Source: Desulfovibrio sp.
GTDB taxonomy: Bacteria; Desulfobacterota; Desulfovibrionia; Desulfovibrionales; Desulfovibrionaceae
Direction: 5' to 3'
NCBI GenBank assembly: GCA_031269345.1
Contig: JAISZH010000158.1
Location: forward strand, 1 to 47,321
DNA: 47,321 bases
Shown here: in pieces, positions 12,572 to 22,444 of the stretch
Layout of the letters: the number at the start of each line of letters is the position of its first letter
Numbering within the stretch: the stretch's first letter is position 1
Made by a program: the position numbers and the translations under genes
The notes under the pieces: generated by a model
Told to the model about the DNA's origin: nothing
Databases searched by the model: none
The model's input: only the letters and a program-made list of their open reading frames with translations

Positions 12572-13945
12572 CTAAAATCTCGCCAGGGCTTTTTTATAAG
12601 CTTCCAGGGTAAAGTCGATTACCGTCTCGTCGTGGGCCGTGGAAAGACTGTAGCGGTTGGTGGGCTTATTGTAGATGCCTTCCCGGAACAGCGCGAAGTC
12701 GATTTTTTTGCGCAGGGTCAGGTCTGCGCCCTGCATGTCCCGGTAACTGCCGATCGTTTGCTTGTCGGTTATGGCGATGTTGAATACCGTGCCCAGGCCG
12801 GGAAGGTTAACGGGGATACCCTTTGCCGCGAAGATGGCTTTAAGGCCCTGTTTCAGGCTTTCTGTGCGCGTGGTCATGGGTTCGAATTCTTTTTCCAGGA
12901 TTTCCATGCTTGCCAGTCCGGCTCGCAGGATCAGGGGGTCGCCGTTGTAAGTCCCGCTGTGGAACAGGACGTCTTTCGCGGCCGAGCGTTTGCCCGCGCT
13001 CATGTCAAAAACGTCCGAACCCCGGATCGGAGCGCTCTTAAGCAACAGTTCTTTTTTGCCGCCGACTATGCCCATGGGCATTCCCGCTCCGATAACCTTT
13101 CCTAGAGCCGTCAGATCCGGCCTGATGCCGAAATAACCCTGCGCTCCGCCCAACCCGGCCCGGAAACCGGTCTTCACCTCGTCAAATACGAGCAATATGC
13201 CGAGTTCCTCGGTCACCTTGCGCAAGCCGCGCATGAATTCCGCGGTGGGTACGATGTATCCGGCGAGAAGCGGCTCCATGATGACAGCCGCCATGTCGTC
13301 CTTGTGTTCCCTGAGTATGTCCGAGCAAGCTTCAAGATCGTCAAAGGGAAGCACCACGGTATTGTCGAACTGGTGCGGTTCAAGCCCCGCGCTTTCCGGA
13401 ACGGGGGAAGGCCGTCCGGCCTCTCCGGCCTGCGCGAGAGGCGGGTTGACGCTGATCAGCACTTGGTTATATCCGCCGTGGTAATGTCCCTCGAATTTGC
13501 CGATTTTGTATTTCCCGGTGCAGGCGTAAGCCATGCGCAGGCTGAGAAGCGTGGCTTCAGTGCCGGAGTTGGTGTAGCGCAGAAGCTCAATGCTCGGGAA
13601 GTGCTGTTTGATCTTTTCCGCGTACTCGGTTTCCAGGGCGTGCGGAGTGCCGTAGAGAAGGGAGCCGTGCCGGTTGAACTGCTCCCGGATTGCTTCTTTG
13701 ACGGCCGGATGCCCGTGTCCCAAAGCCAGGGGACCGTAAGAAAGCAGGTAGTCCACATAGCGGTTTCCGTCGACGTCCGTAAGCCAGGCCCCTTCGCCCC
13801 TGTCCATAAAAATGGGATAGGGCTCAAAGAATTTGATGTTTGCCGAGACCCCGCCCGGAAGCGCGCGGCAGGCTTTGCCGTATAGTTCCGCGGATTTCGG
13901 CGTCCTCTCCGTGTACTCCAGTATCAGGGATTCGAGGGCAATCAT
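12572..13945 (-). CDS. Class III aminotransferase, glutamate-1-semialdehyde aminomutase-like
   Basis: The 457-residue PLP enzyme follows the HemL/class III pattern: residue 27 onward RALPGGVSAN, then VDYLLSYGPLALGHGHPAV, NSGTEATLLSLRMAY (126-140), VFDEVKTGFR with Asp255, and ALGKVIGAGMP with the PLP lysine Lys283. Insertions at about 170-195 and 320-335 set it apart from the plain HemL of about 430 residues, and it is coupled to a TRAP transporter rather than to heme genes. It probably acts on the amino compound that the transporter brings in, or on a related keto acid. True HemL activity is possible but less likely. The start overlaps the TRAP permease stop (ATGA). Confidence 0.85.
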   Translation of the reverse strand: MIALESLILEYTERTPKSAELYGKACRALPGGVSANIKFFEPYPIFMDRGEGAWLTDVDGNRYVDYLLSYGPLALGHGHPAVKEAIREQFNRHGSLLYGTPHALETEYAEKIKQHFPSIELLRYTNSGTEATLLSLRMAYACTGKYKIGKFEGHYHGGYNQVLISVNPPLAQAGEAGRPSPVPESAGLEPHQFDNTVVLPFDDLEACSDILREHKDDMAAVIMEPLLAGYIVPTAEFMRGLRKVTEELGILLVFDEVKTGFRAGLGGAQGYFGIRPDLTALGKVIGAGMPMGIVGGKKELLLKSAPIRGSDVFDMSAGKRSAAKDVLFHSGTYNGDPLILRAGLASMEILEKEFEPMTTRTESLKQGLKAIFAAKGIPVNLPGLGTVFNIAITDKQTIGSYRDMQGADLTLRKKIDFALFREGIYNKPTNRYSLSTAHDETVIDFTLEAYKKALARF

Positions 13946-15930
13946 GGCGCGTTCTCCTTGGTGTTCCGAACCAGTTCGGGATTTCGGCGTTTTTGTAAAA
14001 TATAGATCCCGGCCAGAACGGTTATGCCGATAATATCGGTAAGCGTAGCGGGGTCAATAAGCAACAGCCCGGTCGCCAGGAGCAGTACGCGCTCCCATGG
14101 CCGGCACGGCGCCTGGAAATAGCCCGTAAACCCGGTCGCAATGCACATCATGCCCATAACGGCGGTTCCGACTGCCTTGAGCGTCAGCAGTACAAACAGC
14201 GCCATACCCGTTCCCTCGGGCCTGACCAGAACCAGTTCGGGATTGAAGACGAAGATATAGGGCGCCAGATAGGCTGCAAAACCCAGGCGGAAGGCTTCGA
14301 CCCCGGTCTTTACCGGGTTCCCTCCGGCTATGCCGGCCCCGGCGAAGGCGGCCAGGGCGACCGGAGGGGTGATGTCGGCGACGATGCCGAAATAAAATAC
14401 GAAGAGGTGCGCAGCTATGGGCTCGACACCGAGCTGGATCATGGCCGGGGCGGAGATGGTGGCCTGAATGATGTAATTTGCCGTGGTGGGCACCCCCATG
14501 CCGAGCAGCATGGAGCAGAGCATGGTCAGGAGCATGGTCATAAGGAGGCTGCCCCCGGCAAGGCTGACGATGCCTCCGGCCATTTTCAATCCCAGTCCGG
14601 ACAAGGTGATCACGCCCACGATGATCCCGGCGCAGGCGCAGGCGCAGGCCACGCCCACGGCCGAGCGCGCTCCTTCTTCCAGGGCGAAGATGATACGTTC
14701 CGGAAAAGACAGGATATCTACCGTGCCTGTGGCGCGCAGGATCGTGACGAGCCATACCGCTACGCTGGAAAAGATGCCGAAAAGCGCGGAGCGCATGGGT
14801 GTGTAGCCGGCGCACAGCATGACCACGATTACCACAATGGGGGTGACCATGTACCAGTGCGCACGCAACAGTTCCCTGCAGTCTGGAAGTTCGGATTTTG
14901 GCAGTCCGAGCAGGCCGTGCTTCAGGGCTTCAAAGTGTACGTTGGTAAATATTCCCACGAAATAGAGCAGGGCGGGAATACAGGCGGCCGTGGCCACCGT
15001 GGCGTAACTGCAGCCGATGTACTCGGTCATGATGAAAGCGGCTGCCCCCATGACGGGTGGCACGATCTGTCCGCCTGTGGATGCGGCCGCTTCGACGGCG
15101 CCGGCGAATTCCTTGCGGTAACCTGCGGATTTCATGAGCGGTATGGTGACAGAACCGGTTCCGACCGTGTTGGCCACGGAGCTGCCGCTGATCGTGCCCT
15201 GCAAAGCGCTGGCCACCACGGCCGCTTTGGCCGGCCCGCCCGCCGTCCCTCCACAGGAACCCATGGCCAGTCCGGTCATCCAGTCCCCTATTCCGCTTTT
15301 TTTGAGGAAAACCGCAAAGAGCAGAAAAAGAAAAATAAAGGTTGAGGAAACATAGACAGGCGTACCCAGAATACCTTCAGTGCCGATCCACTCAAAGGTG
15401 GCGATGCGTTTCAGGCTTAATCCCCTGTGCGCCAGAAAACCGGGGAAATATGAGCCGAAGTAGGCATAGGCGAGAAAAAAGGTCGCCAGGATCACAATGG
15501 CCGGGCCGATTACGCGTCTGGCGCCTTCCAGCACCAGGAGAACGGCCACGACGCTGACCGCCGCGTCCAGATCGGAATACATGCCGCTGCGCAGATAGAG
15601 TTCTTCATAGAACACCACATGGTACATGCTGACCAGGACACTGCACAGGGCCAGAAAATAATCGTGGAGGGGAATGGACGATTCTCTTTGTCCCCTGCGG
15701 AAGGGGTGGAGAAGGAAGACTAAAGTCAGGGCCGCGCCCACATGCGGAGCGCGTTGCAGGGTGGACGGGAAAGTGCCGAAGAGGGCGGTGTACAGCTGGA
15801 AAAGAGACCAGGCCAGGGCAATGCAGAAAATCACTTTGGCCACAGGACCATGAAGACGCCGATGGGCGGATTCCCGGTCGAATTTTTCCAGAATATCCGC
15901 GCCGTCGAATGTTTTTTCCTGCGCCTGCAT
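13942..15930 (-). CDS. TRAP transporter permease, fused small and large membrane subunits (TAXI type)
   Basis: The 662-residue protein combines the 4-helix DctQ-like part (about residues 20-200) with the 12-helix DctM-like part, the '4TM/12TM fusion' form that pairs with TAXI receptors. Landmarks are GDWMTGLAMGSCGGTAGGPAKAA, GTISGSSVANTVGTGSVTIP, AASTGGQIVPPVMGAAAFIM and, late in the protein, GMGVPTTANYI and DITPPVALAAFAGAGIAGGNP. It moves a small organic acid or amino acid with sodium ions across the inner membrane. Its receptor gene lies upstream but is separated by 235 nt holding two repeats; the aminotransferase gene follows with an ATGA overlap. Start at 15930 follows GGGAAG. Confidence 0.93.
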   Translation of the reverse strand: MQAQEKTFDGADILEKFDRESAHRRLHGPVAKVIFCIALAWSLFQLYTALFGTFPSTLQRAPHVGAALTLVFLLHPFRRGQRESSIPLHDYFLALCSVLVSMYHVVFYEELYLRSGMYSDLDAAVSVVAVLLVLEGARRVIGPAIVILATFFLAYAYFGSYFPGFLAHRGLSLKRIATFEWIGTEGILGTPVYVSSTFIFLFLLFAVFLKKSGIGDWMTGLAMGSCGGTAGGPAKAAVVASALQGTISGSSVANTVGTGSVTIPLMKSAGYRKEFAGAVEAAASTGGQIVPPVMGAAAFIMTEYIGCSYATVATAACIPALLYFVGIFTNVHFEALKHGLLGLPKSELPDCRELLRAHWYMVTPIVVIVVMLCAGYTPMRSALFGIFSSVAVWLVTILRATGTVDILSFPERIIFALEEGARSAVGVACACACAGIIVGVITLSGLGLKMAGGIVSLAGGSLLMTMLLTMLCSMLLGMGVPTTANYIIQATISAPAMIQLGVEPIAAHLFVFYFGIVADITPPVALAAFAGAGIAGGNPVKTGVEAFRLGFAAYLAPYIFVFNPELVLVRPEGTGMALFVLLTLKAVGTAVMGMMCIATGFTGYFQAPCRPWERVLLLATGLLLIDPATLTDIIGITVLAGIYILQKRRNPELVRNTKENAP

Positions 15931-15945
15931 GGGACTTCCCTGGAG

Positions 15946-16001
15946 CGTTTACGCCTGAGACGCCCGCTTGACGGCGGGCGAAGCCCGTCTGCAAGCGTCT
16001 C
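15946..16001 (-). repeat. Dispersed repeat family B, copy next to the MITE-like element
   Basis: The segment GTTTACGCCTGAGACG, then GCTTGACGGCGGGC-GAA-GCCCGTCTGCAAGC and CGTCTC, forms a long stem (15957-16001). It matches the family B layout at 22443 and 34341. It lies between the TRAP receptor and permease genes. Confidence 0.7.
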
Positions 16002-16144
16002 ATACCAAGTTGCATTCAAACGAGTTTGAACGCAAGGCGCCAAAGTTTTTGAAAAACAGGCGAAGCCCGGTTTTTCAGAAACTTGCGGGCGACGGCTTCG
16101 CCTCCGCCGCACCAATCCGCTTTCTGGCGAAAGCAGATTGGTAT
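16002..16144 (+). mobile_element. MITE-like repeat family E, copy 1 (143 bp)
   Basis: The element starts ATACCAAGTTGC and ends GCAGATTGGTAT, imperfect terminal inverted repeats bounded by TA. It encodes no protein. Internal hairpins include GGCGACGGCTTCGCCTCCGCC and GCTTTC-TGGC-GAAAGC. Copy 2 lies at 17188-17328 in the same orientation. Size, terminal repeats and TA ends fit a non-autonomous element, possibly of the IS630/Tc1 type; no related transposase is in the window. Confidence 0.65.
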
Positions 16145-16164
16145 CAAGCATATCCGCTCTGCTG

Positions 16165-17157
16165 CTACTTCATAATCAATGCCGGAATGGAGAGATTTTT
16201 TTCCTTGTAGTACCGGATCGCGCCCGGATGCAGGGGGGTCGTGATCCCGTCCAGAGCCGTCTTGAGTTGAATGTACTTGCCCGCGGCATGGGCGGCGGCC
16301 ACTTCCCGGCCGTATTCATAGAAAACCTTGGTAAGCTGATAGGCTGTTTCCTCGTCGAGGTCGGCCCGGCAGTATAAGGCGGCCTGACAGGTGATGGTTT
16401 CAATGCTTGCGGTGTTGCTGTATGTTCCGGGCGGAATGGAAAAGCGGGTAAAGAAGGGATAGTCCTCGCGCAGCTTGGCCAGTTCGGCATCGCTGACGTT
16501 GATGTAGCTCAGTTCCATGCTGGTTTTGAGCTCCACTATAGACGAAGCCGGAACGGAAAGCACGGCGCAGCTTGCGTCTATATGCCGGTCTTTCATCTTT
16601 GAGGCGGCGTTGCCGAAGCCGTCCCGCTGCACCTGAATTTCCTTCGCCATGTCGATGCCTGCCGCCTTGAGAAGCAACTCGGTGATGACCGCTGTGCCGC
16701 TGCCCACCGGCCCGACGGCCACGCGTTTGCCCCTGAGGTCGGAGAGTTTTTCCGCCTTGAGGTAAGCGGCGGCCACTATTTGATAAACTTCCGGATAGAC
16801 AACGCCCAAGGTCAGGAATTTGTTCATTTTTTCTTTGAAAGGGGAGCCGCCTTTCCAGGCCGCGTCGGCTACGTTGTTCATGGCCATGCCGAGATCGGCC
16901 TCGCCGTTGTGCAGCAAGTTCATGTTTTCCACGGAGGCTCCGCTGGAAACACTGCTGACCATGATGCCCTTGCTTTCAAGATGCTTGTTCCATACGGACG
17001 CCATAGCCCCGCCCAGGGCATAATAGGTGCCGCCGGAAGAGCCGGTGACCAGGGTCAGTTGTTTGACCTTGCCGGCCGCAAAGGCGGCAGGGGTGAATCC
17101 GGCTTGGCAAAGCAGCAGCGCGGCCAGCGTCAGAAGCGCAAATTTTACCGTACGCAT
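16165..17157 (-). CDS. TAXI-family TRAP transporter solute-binding protein
   Basis: The 330-residue protein begins with a signal peptide (MRTVKFALLTLAALLLCQAG to about residue 28, ending AAFA). The mature part shows the TAXI hallmarks: QLTLVTGSSGGTYYALGGAM, SSGASVENMNLLHNGEADLGMA, then GKRVAVGPVGSGT and SASIETI-like downstream strands (NTASIETITCQAALYC). It binds the substrate in the periplasm and hands it to the fused permease encoded downstream. Known or proposed ligands of the family include glutamate and related acids; the ligand here cannot be read from sequence. Family E elements flank the gene on both sides, and its own ribosome binding site is GGGAGGT just before the ATG at 17157. Confidence 0.92.
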   Translation of the reverse strand: MRTVKFALLTLAALLLCQAGFTPAAFAAGKVKQLTLVTGSSGGTYYALGGAMASVWNKHLESKGIMVSSVSSGASVENMNLLHNGEADLGMAMNNVADAAWKGGSPFKEKMNKFLTLGVVYPEVYQIVAAAYLKAEKLSDLRGKRVAVGPVGSGTAVITELLLKAAGIDMAKEIQVQRDGFGNAASKMKDRHIDASCAVLSVPASSIVELKTSMELSYINVSDAELAKLREDYPFFTRFSIPPGTYSNTASIETITCQAALYCRADLDEETAYQLTKVFYEYGREVAAAHAAGKYIQLKTALDGITTPLHPGAIRYYKEKNLSIPALIMK

Positions 17158-17897: not shown

Positions 17898-20327
17898 ATG
17901 ATTGATTACCAAAGGGATTTGAACGCCGCCCAGTTCGAGGCCGTCACCACTCTGGAAGGTCCGGTTCTGGTCATCGCCGGGGCGGGCAGCGGCAAAACCC
18001 GGACAATAGTCTACCGTCTGGCCCGTCTCGTGGAAACGGGCGTCTGCGCATCCTCCATCCTGCTTCTGACCTTTACCCGCAAAGCCGCGCGAGAAATGCT
18101 GGATCGCGCCAGGGAACTTCTCTGGCAAAGCCTTCCGCCGGACCGGGCCGGGCGGGAGGAGGGCGACCGGCACGACCTGGGCGCCATGCAGGGCGGCACC
18201 TTCCATTCCTATGCTTTTTCCGTGTTGCGCATATTCAGACCTGGTACGCGGGGAAGAAGGCTGACGGTAATGGACAATCACGACATCCTCGCCGCCTTTC
18301 AGCACTGCCGCGAAGAAAGCAAGATCGGCAGAGGAGATCGATCCTTCCCGAAAAATCAAACTATTAACGCCATTTTGAGCAAGAGCCGCAACAAGGAACT
18401 GCCGATTGAGGAGGTCATCAGGCGTGATGCCAGGCATCTGCTTGCGCACAGCGGGGCAATTTGCGATCTGGGTCTGGCCTATGCCCGGTATAAAGAGGAG
18501 AAGGACCTGCTTGACTATGACGATCTGCTTTTCTCCCTGGAAGAAACCCTGCTGACCTGTCCGCAGGCCCTGGATTACTGCCGTACGCGCCATCAATACG
18601 TCATGGTTGACGAATACCAGGATACCAACGCCGTGCAGGCCCGCATCGTGGCCCTGATTTCCGGTCTTTCCGATCCTCCGGGCATGCGCGGGGATGAAGG
18701 CTGCGTCCGTTCAAAGACGCCCCAAAGTGCGGAGCCGGATGGAACCCGTCTGTCCCCTTTCAGCGGAAACCTTATGGTCGTGGGGGACGATGCGCAATCC
18801 ATCTATGCCTTTCGCGGGGCGGACGTCCGCAATATCCTTGATTTCCCAAAACTTTGCGAGGGGGTGAAGATCATTCGCCTGGAAGAGAATTATCGCTCCA
18901 CCCAGCCTGTTCTGGACTTGTGCAACACCGTGCTGAAATATGCCGGCGAAGGCTATGCCAAGCGTCTCTACACCCGCAGAAGCGACGGGGAACTGCCCGG
19001 ACTGGTGCGGCCCCTGTCGGACAGGAGTCAGGCGGGTTTTGTGGCCGCGCGGATACTGGAGCTTATGCGCGTTTACAAACCGGAAGACATCGCCGTACTT
19101 TTCCGGGCTGCTTTCCATTCTTTCGCCCTCGAACTCGCGCTGAACAAACAGGGGCTGCCTTTTAAAAAATATGGGGGCATCCGCTATACGGACGCCGCGC
19201 ACATCAAAGATGCCTTGAGCTATATGCGCCTTGTGCATAATCCCCTTGATTTTCCGGCTTTCTCGCGCATGGCGGAACTGTCCAGGGGCGTCGGTCCAAA
19301 AACCTGTCTGAAGATGTATCAGGCGATTCTGGTCGGGGAGGCCGCCGTACTGAACAGGGAGTCCAGGCGCCACCCGGAGTTTTCCGCCGACCTGGCCTTT
19401 CTGGAGGGCCTGCGCAACGGCACTTTCACCCCGGCGGAGCTTTTGTCGGAAGTGGCGGAGCACTACGCGCCACGGCTGGAAGAACTGTACCCGGATGATT
19501 ACCCCAGACGCATGCAGGAGATCGAGCATCTGATCCAGATTGCTTCGGCTTACCGGGACCTGGATGTGCTGCTTGCGGACCTTTCCATCGAGGATCCGGA
19601 AAACCGGCATGAGGCGCGCGAGGCCCTGACCCTTTCCACCATCCACTCGGCCAAGGGTCTGGAATGGGAGGCGGTCATCATACTGGATCTGGTCGAGGAC
19701 CGCTTTCCTTCCCGCCACGCCCTGACGCGGCCGGAGGATTTCGAGGAGGAGCGCAGGCTGATGTACGTGGCCTGCACGCGCGCCCGCACTGTCCTTGAAC
19801 TCTACGTGCCGGAGAGTATCTACGACAGGGCCGGCGGCGGCAGTATACCCGCCGTTCCCAGCCCTTTCGTGCGCGAGCTTGCGCCGGGTCTCTACCGGGA
19901 ATTTCGGGAAAGTTACGGGGGCAGGCTGGTGGAAAAAAAGCGCCTGGACAGTGCGGCTGGCCCCGTATCCGGCCGCGGCGCGCTCCAAAACAAAGGCCCG
20001 GCCGCGGGTTGCAAAGACACAGGGGATATTTCCGGAGGCGATCCCGATTATATCCCTTTGAACTGCGTCTCGCCGGGAGACGTCTCTCCGGGAGATATCG
20101 CCTTGGACGGTGAAACTTTGGGCGAGGCGGTTTTGGGAGGCCCGGCTCCGGATTGTATGTCCGGGCGAAGCGCGGGCGAGGCGGCCGGAACCTTCGGTTT
20201 CTGCCGGCACCGCATTTTCGGCAGAGGAAAAATAGTGCAGTATCTGCCGCCGGATCGGGTCAGGGTTAATTTCCCCGGCATCGGCCTTAAAGTCATCATG
20301 TCGGCTTACCTTTGCATGGAGAACTGA
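17898..20327 (+). CDS. ATP-dependent DNA helicase, UvrD/PcrA type (superfamily 1A)
   Basis: The 809-residue helicase unwinds DNA 3'-5' in repair or replication restart. Motifs in order: Q-motif LNAAQFEAV, Walker A AGAGSGKT (27-34), TFTRKAAREM, Walker B VDEYQDTN, GDDAQSIYAFRGAD, LEENYRS, then GLEWEAVIILDL and MYVACTRAR. A short insertion of about 25 residues sits between VDEYQDTN and the GDDAQSIY motif. After about residue 660 comes a low-complexity Gly/Pro/Asp-rich tail (VSPGDVSPGDIALDG region), then FGRGKIVQYLPPDRVRV, which resembles the terminal Tudor-like fold of PcrA/UvrD. It may be the cell's main UvrD/PcrA or a paralogue. The next gene starts one base after the stop. Confidence 0.92.
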   Translation: MIDYQRDLNAAQFEAVTTLEGPVLVIAGAGSGKTRTIVYRLARLVETGVCASSILLLTFTRKAAREMLDRARELLWQSLPPDRAGREEGDRHDLGAMQGGTFHSYAFSVLRIFRPGTRGRRLTVMDNHDILAAFQHCREESKIGRGDRSFPKNQTINAILSKSRNKELPIEEVIRRDARHLLAHSGAICDLGLAYARYKEEKDLLDYDDLLFSLEETLLTCPQALDYCRTRHQYVMVDEYQDTNAVQARIVALISGLSDPPGMRGDEGCVRSKTPQSAEPDGTRLSPFSGNLMVVGDDAQSIYAFRGADVRNILDFPKLCEGVKIIRLEENYRSTQPVLDLCNTVLKYAGEGYAKRLYTRRSDGELPGLVRPLSDRSQAGFVAARILELMRVYKPEDIAVLFRAAFHSFALELALNKQGLPFKKYGGIRYTDAAHIKDALSYMRLVHNPLDFPAFSRMAELSRGVGPKTCLKMYQAILVGEAAVLNRESRRHPEFSADLAFLEGLRNGTFTPAELLSEVAEHYAPRLEELYPDDYPRRMQEIEHLIQIASAYRDLDVLLADLSIEDPENRHEAREALTLSTIHSAKGLEWEAVIILDLVEDRFPSRHALTRPEDFEEERRLMYVACTRARTVLELYVPESIYDRAGGGSIPAVPSPFVRELAPGLYREFRESYGGRLVEKKRLDSAAGPVSGRGALQNKGPAAGCKDTGDISGGDPDYIPLNCVSPGDVSPGDIALDGETLGEAVLGGPAPDCMSGRSAGEAAGTFGFCRHRIFGRGKIVQYLPPDRVRVNFPGIGLKVIMSAYLCMEN

Positions 20328-20328
20328 T

Positions 20329-22107
20329 TTGAACGGGTTTTGGGACGAAGAAGGGGCGGCTTCCGGGCCGCCGGGGTCCGAGGATGAACTGCTCGGGCTG
20401 ATTGACGCGGAATTTCCTTCACTCTGCCCGCATCTGCCTTTCGGACGCGGGCACGATTGCGCCGAGCTTGCCGGGATTGCCGCCAGCCCGGAAAATGTCT
20501 GCCTTGCCTTGTCCACCGACCTTTTTTTGCAGGATGTGCATTTCAGCACCAGATATTTTTTACCAGAAGAAGCCGGGGCCAAGGCCCTGTCTTCGGCTGT
20601 GAGCGATTTGGCGGCGGCCGGGGCCGCGCCGCTCGGCTTTTCCCTTGGGCTTATGCTGCCGCCGCGCATAAGCGTGAAAACCGTGGCCCGCATGCTTTCC
20701 GGCATGGCGCGCAAGGCGCGCGAATACGGCCTTTGGCTGAGCGGAGGCGATTTGTCGCGCAGCAACCGGGTCGGTTTTTCCGTCACCCTGTGGGGGACGC
20801 CCTGCGGAAGCGTCCAGGGTTTTCTGCGCCGCAGCGCGGCGCGGCGGGAAACAGGAGATGTCATTTTTCTTGTCGGACAGGCCGGGCTTGCCCGTGTGGG
20901 CTTATGGGCTTTAGAGAAATACGGACGGGCGGCCCTTGGCCGTTTTCCCTCGGCATGCCTGGCCCACCTTGATCCGCGCCCTCTGCTGCGCGAAGGGCGG
21001 ATACTCGCCGCCTTGTCCGGGCAATCCGGGGAAAGCCTCGCTCTGATGGACCTTTCCGACGGTCTGCTGCGCGATCTCCCCCGTCTTCTGCAAGGCCTGG
21101 GCGCGAGCCTGGATTTTTCCCCGGCCCTGTTCCATGAGGAGGTTTTATCAGCTTCGGTTCCCATGCGTGAGCCGGCGGCGGAGATTGTTCTCCGGGGAGG
21201 AGAAGACTACGCGCTGCTTGGGGTTTGCAAGCCTGACCTGTGGTCGCGTGTGGAAGAGTGTCTGCCTGAGGCCGTTCTCCTGGGCGAGGTCAGCCCGGAA
21301 AAGGGCATCTGTCTGAGCGGAGTTACCTTTGCAAAAGATGGTTTTGATCATTTTTCCCCGGCTGCCGCTGTCGAGAAGCCCGGCCATTGGCCGCCCCGGC
21401 GCGTCAGAGCCGGGAAAAAGCCGTTGCTTTGGACAGGTATGGCGCGGCCTGGGGAAAAGCGTCTCACGCGCGTCCGGGTCGGATTGCCGCGAAGGTTGCT
21501 GCCCCCGGAAACAGGCGCGGCCGCAAGGGCGATCATTACTACCGGCCTCAGGGCCGGGTTCTCCGGCTTCACAAGCGGTTTCAACAGCAACATCAGTGTG
21601 CGCGTGACGCTTGCCGACGGCAGCGCGGCCTGTCTGATAACCCGCGCCGGCGTTGACAAGTCCGCGCTCAGCTATGAGGATCTTGTGCTGCTCTCCCTGT
21701 CCGGGGAGAAAATATGCGGGGCGGCCGAAGCCTCCACTGAAAGCTCAATGCATCTTGAGATTTATCGCGCCGCACCCGGCAGTCGGGCCGTCCTGCACAG
21801 CCATCCGCCCTGCCTTCTGGCCCTGAGCCTTTCCCCGCTCTGGGACAGGGGGTTCGCCCTGCCTTTGCCGGAAGTGGAACGGTACCGCGCGCTTTTAGCC
21901 GTTACCCCTTTTTTTCCCCCTGGCACGGCCGAGCTGGCCGCGGCCGTGGGTAAGGCAGCCGGGGAACACGCAGCCCTCTGGCTTACGCGCCACGGCCTGG
22001 TGACGCACGGTCCGGATCTGGCCTTTGCCTTGTCCTTGACGGCCGAACTTGAGCAGACGGCGAAAATAGCGCTGATGACCTTCCGCCTTGTCCCTCAAAC
22101 TCATTGA
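20329..22107 (+). CDS. Fusion of thiamine-monophosphate kinase-like (ThiL) and class II aldolase/adducin domains
   Basis: The 592-residue protein uses a TTG start one base after the helicase stop. Residues 15-335 resemble ThiL: GHDCAEL (41-47, normally GDDAAVL, so the first Asp is His42), STDLFLQDVHF, VSDLAAAG, LSGGDLSRS, MDLSDGLLRDL (240-250) and LRGGEDYALL (288-297). ThiL phosphorylates thiamine phosphate to the diphosphate. Residues 400-592 resemble class II aldolases: GFTSGFNSNISVR, the catalytic-type Glu472 in ESSMHLEIYR, and His490, His492 and His555 (VLHSHP, TRHGLVTHG), which fit the zinc ligands of fuculose-phosphate aldolase. A basic linker (350-395) joins them. Both active sites look usable, except the His42 change. 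I do not know a pathway that links them; the aldolase substrate is open. Confidence 0.85.
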   Translation: MNGFWDEEGAASGPPGSEDELLGLIDAEFPSLCPHLPFGRGHDCAELAGIAASPENVCLALSTDLFLQDVHFSTRYFLPEEAGAKALSSAVSDLAAAGAAPLGFSLGLMLPPRISVKTVARMLSGMARKAREYGLWLSGGDLSRSNRVGFSVTLWGTPCGSVQGFLRRSAARRETGDVIFLVGQAGLARVGLWALEKYGRAALGRFPSACLAHLDPRPLLREGRILAALSGQSGESLALMDLSDGLLRDLPRLLQGLGASLDFSPALFHEEVLSASVPMREPAAEIVLRGGEDYALLGVCKPDLWSRVEECLPEAVLLGEVSPEKGICLSGVTFAKDGFDHFSPAAAVEKPGHWPPRRVRAGKKPLLWTGMARPGEKRLTRVRVGLPRRLLPPETGAAARAIITTGLRAGFSGFTSGFNSNISVRVTLADGSAACLITRAGVDKSALSYEDLVLLSLSGEKICGAAEASTESSMHLEIYRAAPGSRAVLHSHPPCLLALSLSPLWDRGFALPLPEVERYRALLAVTPFFPPGTAELAAAVGKAAGEHAALWLTRHGLVTHGPDLAFALSLTAELEQTAKIALMTFRLVPQTH

Positions 22108-22168
22108 TATTGACAGTCAGCTCATGGATGATGCCCGGCGGGGCGTTCTGTATTTGAAGGAGGAAACC

Positions 22169-22444
22169 ATGCGCGGATGTATGGATGTGGAGGCGGTGGT
22201 CGCCAGATTGAAAAGGATTGAGGGGCAGGTGCGCGGGATCATGAATATGGTGCAGGAGGACGTGCCCTGCGAGGATATTCTTGTGCAGATCGGCGCGGCC
22301 AAGTCCGCGCTGCATAAAACCGGCCAGGTCATTCTTGAGGGGCATCTGCACCACTGCGTTCTTGCCGGAATTGCGGATGGCGATGCCGGCAACACGCTCA
22401 GAAAATTGGCCAAGGCCATAGAGCAGTTCTCGCGCATGACTTAG
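22169..22444 (+). CDS. Metal-sensing transcriptional repressor, CsoR/RcnR family
   Basis: The 91-residue protein is all-helical with the family core VVARLKRIEGQVRGIMNMV near the N-terminus. Cys and His occur as Cys-x24-His-x3-Cys (VPCEDIL, then EGHLHHC), the spacing of the Cys-His-Cys copper(I) site in CsoR. A copper or related thiophilic-metal sensor is therefore likely. Start chosen at 22169 because GAAGGAGGAAACC lies directly upstream; an earlier frame start at 22088 overlaps the fusion gene and adds non-conserved residues. No copper ATPase or chaperone gene is next to it, so its target is elsewhere or it controls its own unit. Confidence 0.88.
   Translation: MRGCMDVEAVVARLKRIEGQVRGIMNMVQEDVPCEDILVQIGAAKSALHKTGQVILEGHLHHCVLAGIADGDAGNTLRKLAKAIEQFSRMT

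Follow-up and report, generated by a model that had tools for sequence, protein, structure and literature searches.

Two well-described enzyme families meet in the gene examined here. ThiL, the thiamine-monophosphate kinase, has been characterized in E. coli, A. aeolicus (3C9T), A. baumannii (5CM7) and P. aeruginosa (8YKU), and in the A. baumannii enzyme a GDD-type loop touches the ribose-phosphate of ATP/ADP (PMC6416309). FucA and DrdA/Ald2 are class II aldolases; in B. thuringiensis, DrdA acts as the 5-deoxyribulose-1-phosphate aldolase (PDB 6BTD; PMC6079011), and the chemistry of the DHAP shunt has been established in other organisms (PMC6079011, PMC10986504). With the known ThiL proteins, the N-terminal half of the fusion shares the common fold, the catalytic Asp residues, the SDG and GGEDY motifs and its status as the sole copy in the genome, whereas a GDD motif with its first Asp changed to His and the C-terminal aldolase set it apart. 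The aldolase half resembles FucA and DrdA/Ald2 in its fold, three His ligands, catalytic Glu and phosphate-binding Ser/Thr and Asn, but at an identity of only ~26–28%, with ThiL as a fusion partner and, in contrast to DrdA/Ald2, without clustering of the gene with mtnA. Set against L-fuculose-1-phosphate aldolase, it misses the curated FucA cut-off (TIGR01086, 42.5 vs 400.25), and no FGGY fuculokinase (FGGY_N sugar kinase) was found in its own genome.

Two other protein architectures come close to this one. In other Desulfovibrionales, proteins that join TrmO_N to a class II aldolase, often encoded beside thiL, carry an aldolase half ~35–43% identical to that of the fusion, but their N-terminal partner is TrmO_N rather than ThiL. 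A protein from a related genus (locus L142) likewise joins an aldolase to a metabolic partner, although its aldolase is more distant and the partner is MtnA. No description of a ThiL-aldolase or TrmO-aldolase fusion was found in an open-access library. The architecture is new and the component enzymes are known, in agreement with the first-pass annotation, which had remarked that ThiL normally stands alone.

Extent and integrity of the fused reading frame

The frame at 20329–22107 (+) of the window—the whole 47,321-nucleotide stretch analysed—comprises 592 open codons and encodes a 592-residue protein. It starts at a TTG codon placed 1 nt after the stop of uvrD (Table 1), and several relatives in the genus likewise have a UvrD-like frame ahead of thiL. 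Pfam profiles matched the protein in the order AIRS (7e-18), AIRS_C (8e-5) and Aldolase_II (8e-32). The genome that carries the gene measures 2.63 Mb and is 92% complete. An identical single-frame layout occurs in six genomes of one Desulfovibrio genus, this one included; the five further fused loci (L040/L080, L041/L081, L044/L082, L048/L121 and L049/L083, the two locus series being matched up by equal contig sizes) were identified by searching related genomes for the same domain pair, as had been proposed. The named carriers are Desulfovibrio metagenome-assembled genomes and the cultured type strain D. cuneatus DSM 11391.

A frameshift or missed stop splitting the gene, raised beforehand as the observation that could overturn the fusion, and an assembly chimera are both excluded for practical purposes, since six independent genomes share the frame and dN/dS stays close to 0.2 across the junction. 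Relative to the nearest relative (84% identity), the ratios were 0.19 (ThiL), about 0.225 (linker) and 0.22 (aldolase)—values indicating that both halves are under purifying selection. The earlier description of a single frame holding two intact enzyme domains was right.

Table 1. Features of the fusion gene and its upstream neighbour (positions refer to the window).
Feature	Position	Strand	Basis
UvrD/PcrA-type helicase gene, directly upstream	17898..20327	+	profile matches
Ribosome-binding site GGAG	20318..20321	+	sequence; 7 nt ahead of TTG
ThiL (thiamine-monophosphate kinase) domain, residues 1–345	20329..21363	+	Pfam AIRS/AIRS_C; TIGR01379 162.7 bits (cut-off 184.15); model vs ThiL structures Z 28–34
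GHDC, residues 41–44; His42 for first Asp of GDD, Asp43 retained	20449..20460	+	sequence, alignment
Linker, residues 346–392	21364..21504	+	predicted disorder; dN/dS 0.225
Class II aldolase domain, residues 393–592	21505..22104	+	Pfam Aldolase_II 8.2e-32; model vs FucA/YgbL/DrdA Z 24–25
Catalytic acid/base Glu471	21739..21741	+	conserved in 24/24 aldolase rows
Metal ligands His490 and His492 (HSHPP)	21796..21804	+	alignment
Metal ligand His555	21991..21993	+	alignment

Several other features of the region were recorded. A TRAP-TAXI transporter with fused permease and solute-binding protein lies upstream (13942–17157, −), and the fusion gene is followed by a CsoR/RcnR-type metal-responsive repressor (22088–22444) and then HerA; in the nearest relative (L011), a similar repressor frame precedes an open frame that, by eye, resembles a P-type ATPase. 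An antisense frame of 817 codons (18711–21164, −), spanning uvrD and the ThiL half, had no Pfam match and is presumed to be a shadow of GC-rich coding DNA. Elsewhere in the genome, a urease alpha subunit-like gene (by eye) and a futalosine hydrolase were noted (L165, L162).

Catalytic features of the two halves

In the ThiL half, AIRS is followed by AIRS_C, both above the Pfam cut-off. Its TIGR01379 score falls under the threshold for thiL, yet this was the best curated match by far. The structural model aligned with 6mfm at a Z-score of 33.6 and 2.2 Å across 295 residues, which places it in the ThiL fold, and its closest folds were ThiL proteins with TMP/TPP. The departure of the ATP loop from consensus, with His for one Asp, was confirmed; the replaced Asp, called metal-binding in the earlier reading, belongs to the loop that in the A. 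baumannii enzyme contacts the nucleotide. All other ThiL motifs in the alignment—the second Asp of GDD, TD, SD, GGD, DLSDG and GGEDY—are retained. We considered His42 as a hallmark of the fusion and rejected the idea: unfused ThiL proteins (L042, L043 and L045) also have His, whereas Asp is retained in the fused L044, which makes the substitution a lineage trait independent of the fusion.

Profile searches of the contigs revealed no second, standard ThiL in this genome, answering a check suggested by the first-pass annotation. The remaining AIRS-domain matches were three open frames of 382, 340 and 1057 aa, lengths that fit PurM, HypE and PurL, respectively. A search for thiamine pyrophosphokinase that was positive in seven controls found none among 15 genomes of the genus, and ThiE is present in the genome of the fusion. 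With a single ThiL, no thiamine pyrophosphokinase found and ThiE present, ThiL is the only visible route to TPP, and its most likely activity is still the phosphorylation of thiamine monophosphate to TPP.

The aldolase half scored 111 bits against the PF00596 profile (cut-off 22.2) and is the only PF00596 protein of the genome. The zinc triad had been assigned correctly in the earlier reading; its catalytic Glu, given as residue 472, was off by one. Across 24 aligned aldolases, the three His ligands and Glu471 are invariant, and the phosphate-site residues Ser469 and Ser/Thr470 are likewise conserved; a catalytic role has been described for the counterpart of Glu471, Glu76 of DrdA (PMC6079011). 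The model matched FucA, YgbL and DrdA at comparable scores (Table 1), with YgbL being the nearest solved structure by sequence. None of the NCBIfam aldolase equivalogs attained its cut-off, with all scores far below; 3-oxo-tetronate 4-phosphate decarboxylase ranked best and ribulose-1-P aldolase third. Most likely, the domain splits a ketose-1-phosphate into DHAP and an aldehyde.

AlphaFold2 predicted two confident domains (mean pLDDT 87) connected by a stretch, residues 349–387, with pLDDT <50; overall pTM was 0.61, and the linker varies in length among the fused relatives. Both domains were modeled together, another of the proposed checks; the disordered linker and low pTM suit two independent enzymes on one chain.

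Probable route from neighbouring genes to a fusion

In genomes outside the genus, the aldolase homologue mostly forms the C-terminal half of a protein that begins with TrmO_N. The corresponding gene adjoins thiL in L051–L055 and L104, and lies directly after it in L052, L054, L055 and L104. In many Desulfovibrio species, thiL is followed by an aldolase-only gene, and an ATGA overlap between the two was seen in three inspected loci (L050, L112 and L120). This thiL/(TrmO-)aldolase neighbourhood spans two families of the order, and TrmO_N was not found in the genus of the fusion carriers. The order-wide adjacency explains the fusion as a merger of neighbouring genes, and the chemical link between the two reactions proposed earlier is left unsupported.

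All fused members group in a single clade of the ThiL tree (aLRT 97), alongside ThiL-only members, and the nearest relative of that clade is L050, which carries the ATGA pair. The simplest reading of this quick tree, whose weak inner forks leave the number of events uncertain, would be one fusion followed by at least two losses of the aldolase half, a count that leaves out L092, where the gene ends at a contig edge.

Further class II aldolase architectures emerged from the same comparison. The TrmO_N (tRNA methyltransferase)-class II aldolase fusions occur across Desulfovibrionales (L052:6004–7038, L054:6167–7162 and L104:6401–7996). Moreover, class II aldolase-like proteins of 409–513 residues were seen in L144–L150 and L153 (e.g., L148:8948–10177); their N-terminal part of ~210 residues bears an ETRTFLHD(L/I)PV or similar motif and had no Pfam match in the one member scanned.

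Probable function of the fused enzymes

We consider it probable that the gene is an operon-derived fusion of two working enzymes that act independently—a TMP kinase and a DHAP-releasing aldolase, with salvage of the MtnA product as the best candidate role for the latter. Ancestral genomes would have carried thiL followed by a gene for a TrmO_N-class II aldolase or for the aldolase on its own, in many cases with an overlap of a few bases. An in-frame loss of the ThiL stop in the genus ancestor would then have connected the two proteins via a disordered linker, and several descendants appear to have shed the aldolase half later. The ThiL half would convert thiamine monophosphate to TPP. The aldolase half would release DHAP and an aldehyde from a ketose-1-phosphate, with the salvage of S-adenosylmethionine by-products as its best candidate role. 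Co-expression is most likely the only property that the two activities share, although the persistence of thiL/aldolase adjacency across families could hint at a functional link.

As to the aldolase substrate, 5-deoxyribulose-1-P or 5-methylthioribulose-1-P, formed by MtnA, is plausibly the best candidate. The fusion supplies the sole class II aldolase of a genome that also encodes MtnA (present here and in 56 of 59 genomes searched), a purine nucleoside phosphorylase and a 5'-deoxyadenosine-deaminase-like hydrolase, and that lacks a detectable FGGY kinase; two related genera have a more distant class II aldolase associated with MtnA, as a fusion in one (L142:2744–4531) and as a neighbour in the other (L143:4511–6321). 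Together, these observations favour the two MtnA products. The mtnA gene itself sits on a separate contig, unlinked to the fusion gene, and the phosphorylase is named as purine-nucleoside type, no clear MTA phosphorylase having been found in the genome. Co-occurrence of the aldolase with MtnA (Fisher p 0.046, uncorrected for ancestry) and association of the fusion with the phosphorylase (p 0.09) are both too weak to lean on. A different role, unrelated to MtnA, either as an aldolase for another ketose-1-phosphate or as a decarboxylase (with L-fuculose-1-P, ribulose-1-P or 3-oxo-tetronate-4-P as substrate), is a serious possibility that nonetheless falls short of probable: the equivalog ranking and the proximity to YgbL point in that direction, but every one of those scores is far under its cut-off, no FGGY kinase for making fuculose-1-P was found in the genome, and the single class II aldolase coexists with MtnA.

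Far less credible is the proposal, made on first reading, that the ThiL half takes a new phosphate substrate such as a sugar phosphate, with the aldolase then cleaving the product. His42 in the ATP loop and the sub-threshold TIGR01379 score would agree with it, and we rate it as very improbable given that the remaining catalytic motifs are all kept, that the nearest folds are substrate- or product-bound ThiL, that the genome offers no second ThiL and no detected thiamine pyrophosphokinase, and that His42 does not track with the fusion. Neither a new ThiL substrate nor substrate channelling gained any support in this analysis. A functional coupling, with the aldolase clearing 5-deoxyribose phosphates derived from by-products of radical SAM enzymes (ThiC, ThiH) and thereby tied to thiamine synthesis via ThiL, draws on the long-lived gene neighbourhood in two families and on the inhibition of radical SAM enzymes by their by-product 5'-deoxyadenosine (PMC6079011). 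However, ThiC was found neither in this genome nor in another fused one (G005, 95% complete), sister genomes regularly have ThiL without the aldolase, and the linker is disordered; we regard such coupling as unlikely. Slightly less likely still would be the fuller version, in which TPP formation is joined to disposal of these phosphates and each activity regulates or supports the other.

On the present evidence, there is no sign of a new pathway. Were the activities coupled, vitamin B1 synthesis would be linked to the removal of by-products from radical SAM enzymes; none of the observations requires this. Under the favoured reading of two independent enzymes, the locus offers a well-resolved case of an operon becoming a fusion gene, with intermediate stages alive in related species. 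If the DHAP shunt operates in these bacteria, the MtnA product requires such an aldolase; the aldolase half is thus a candidate for the missing enzyme in many Desulfovibrionales and a lead to the DHAP shunt aldolase there.
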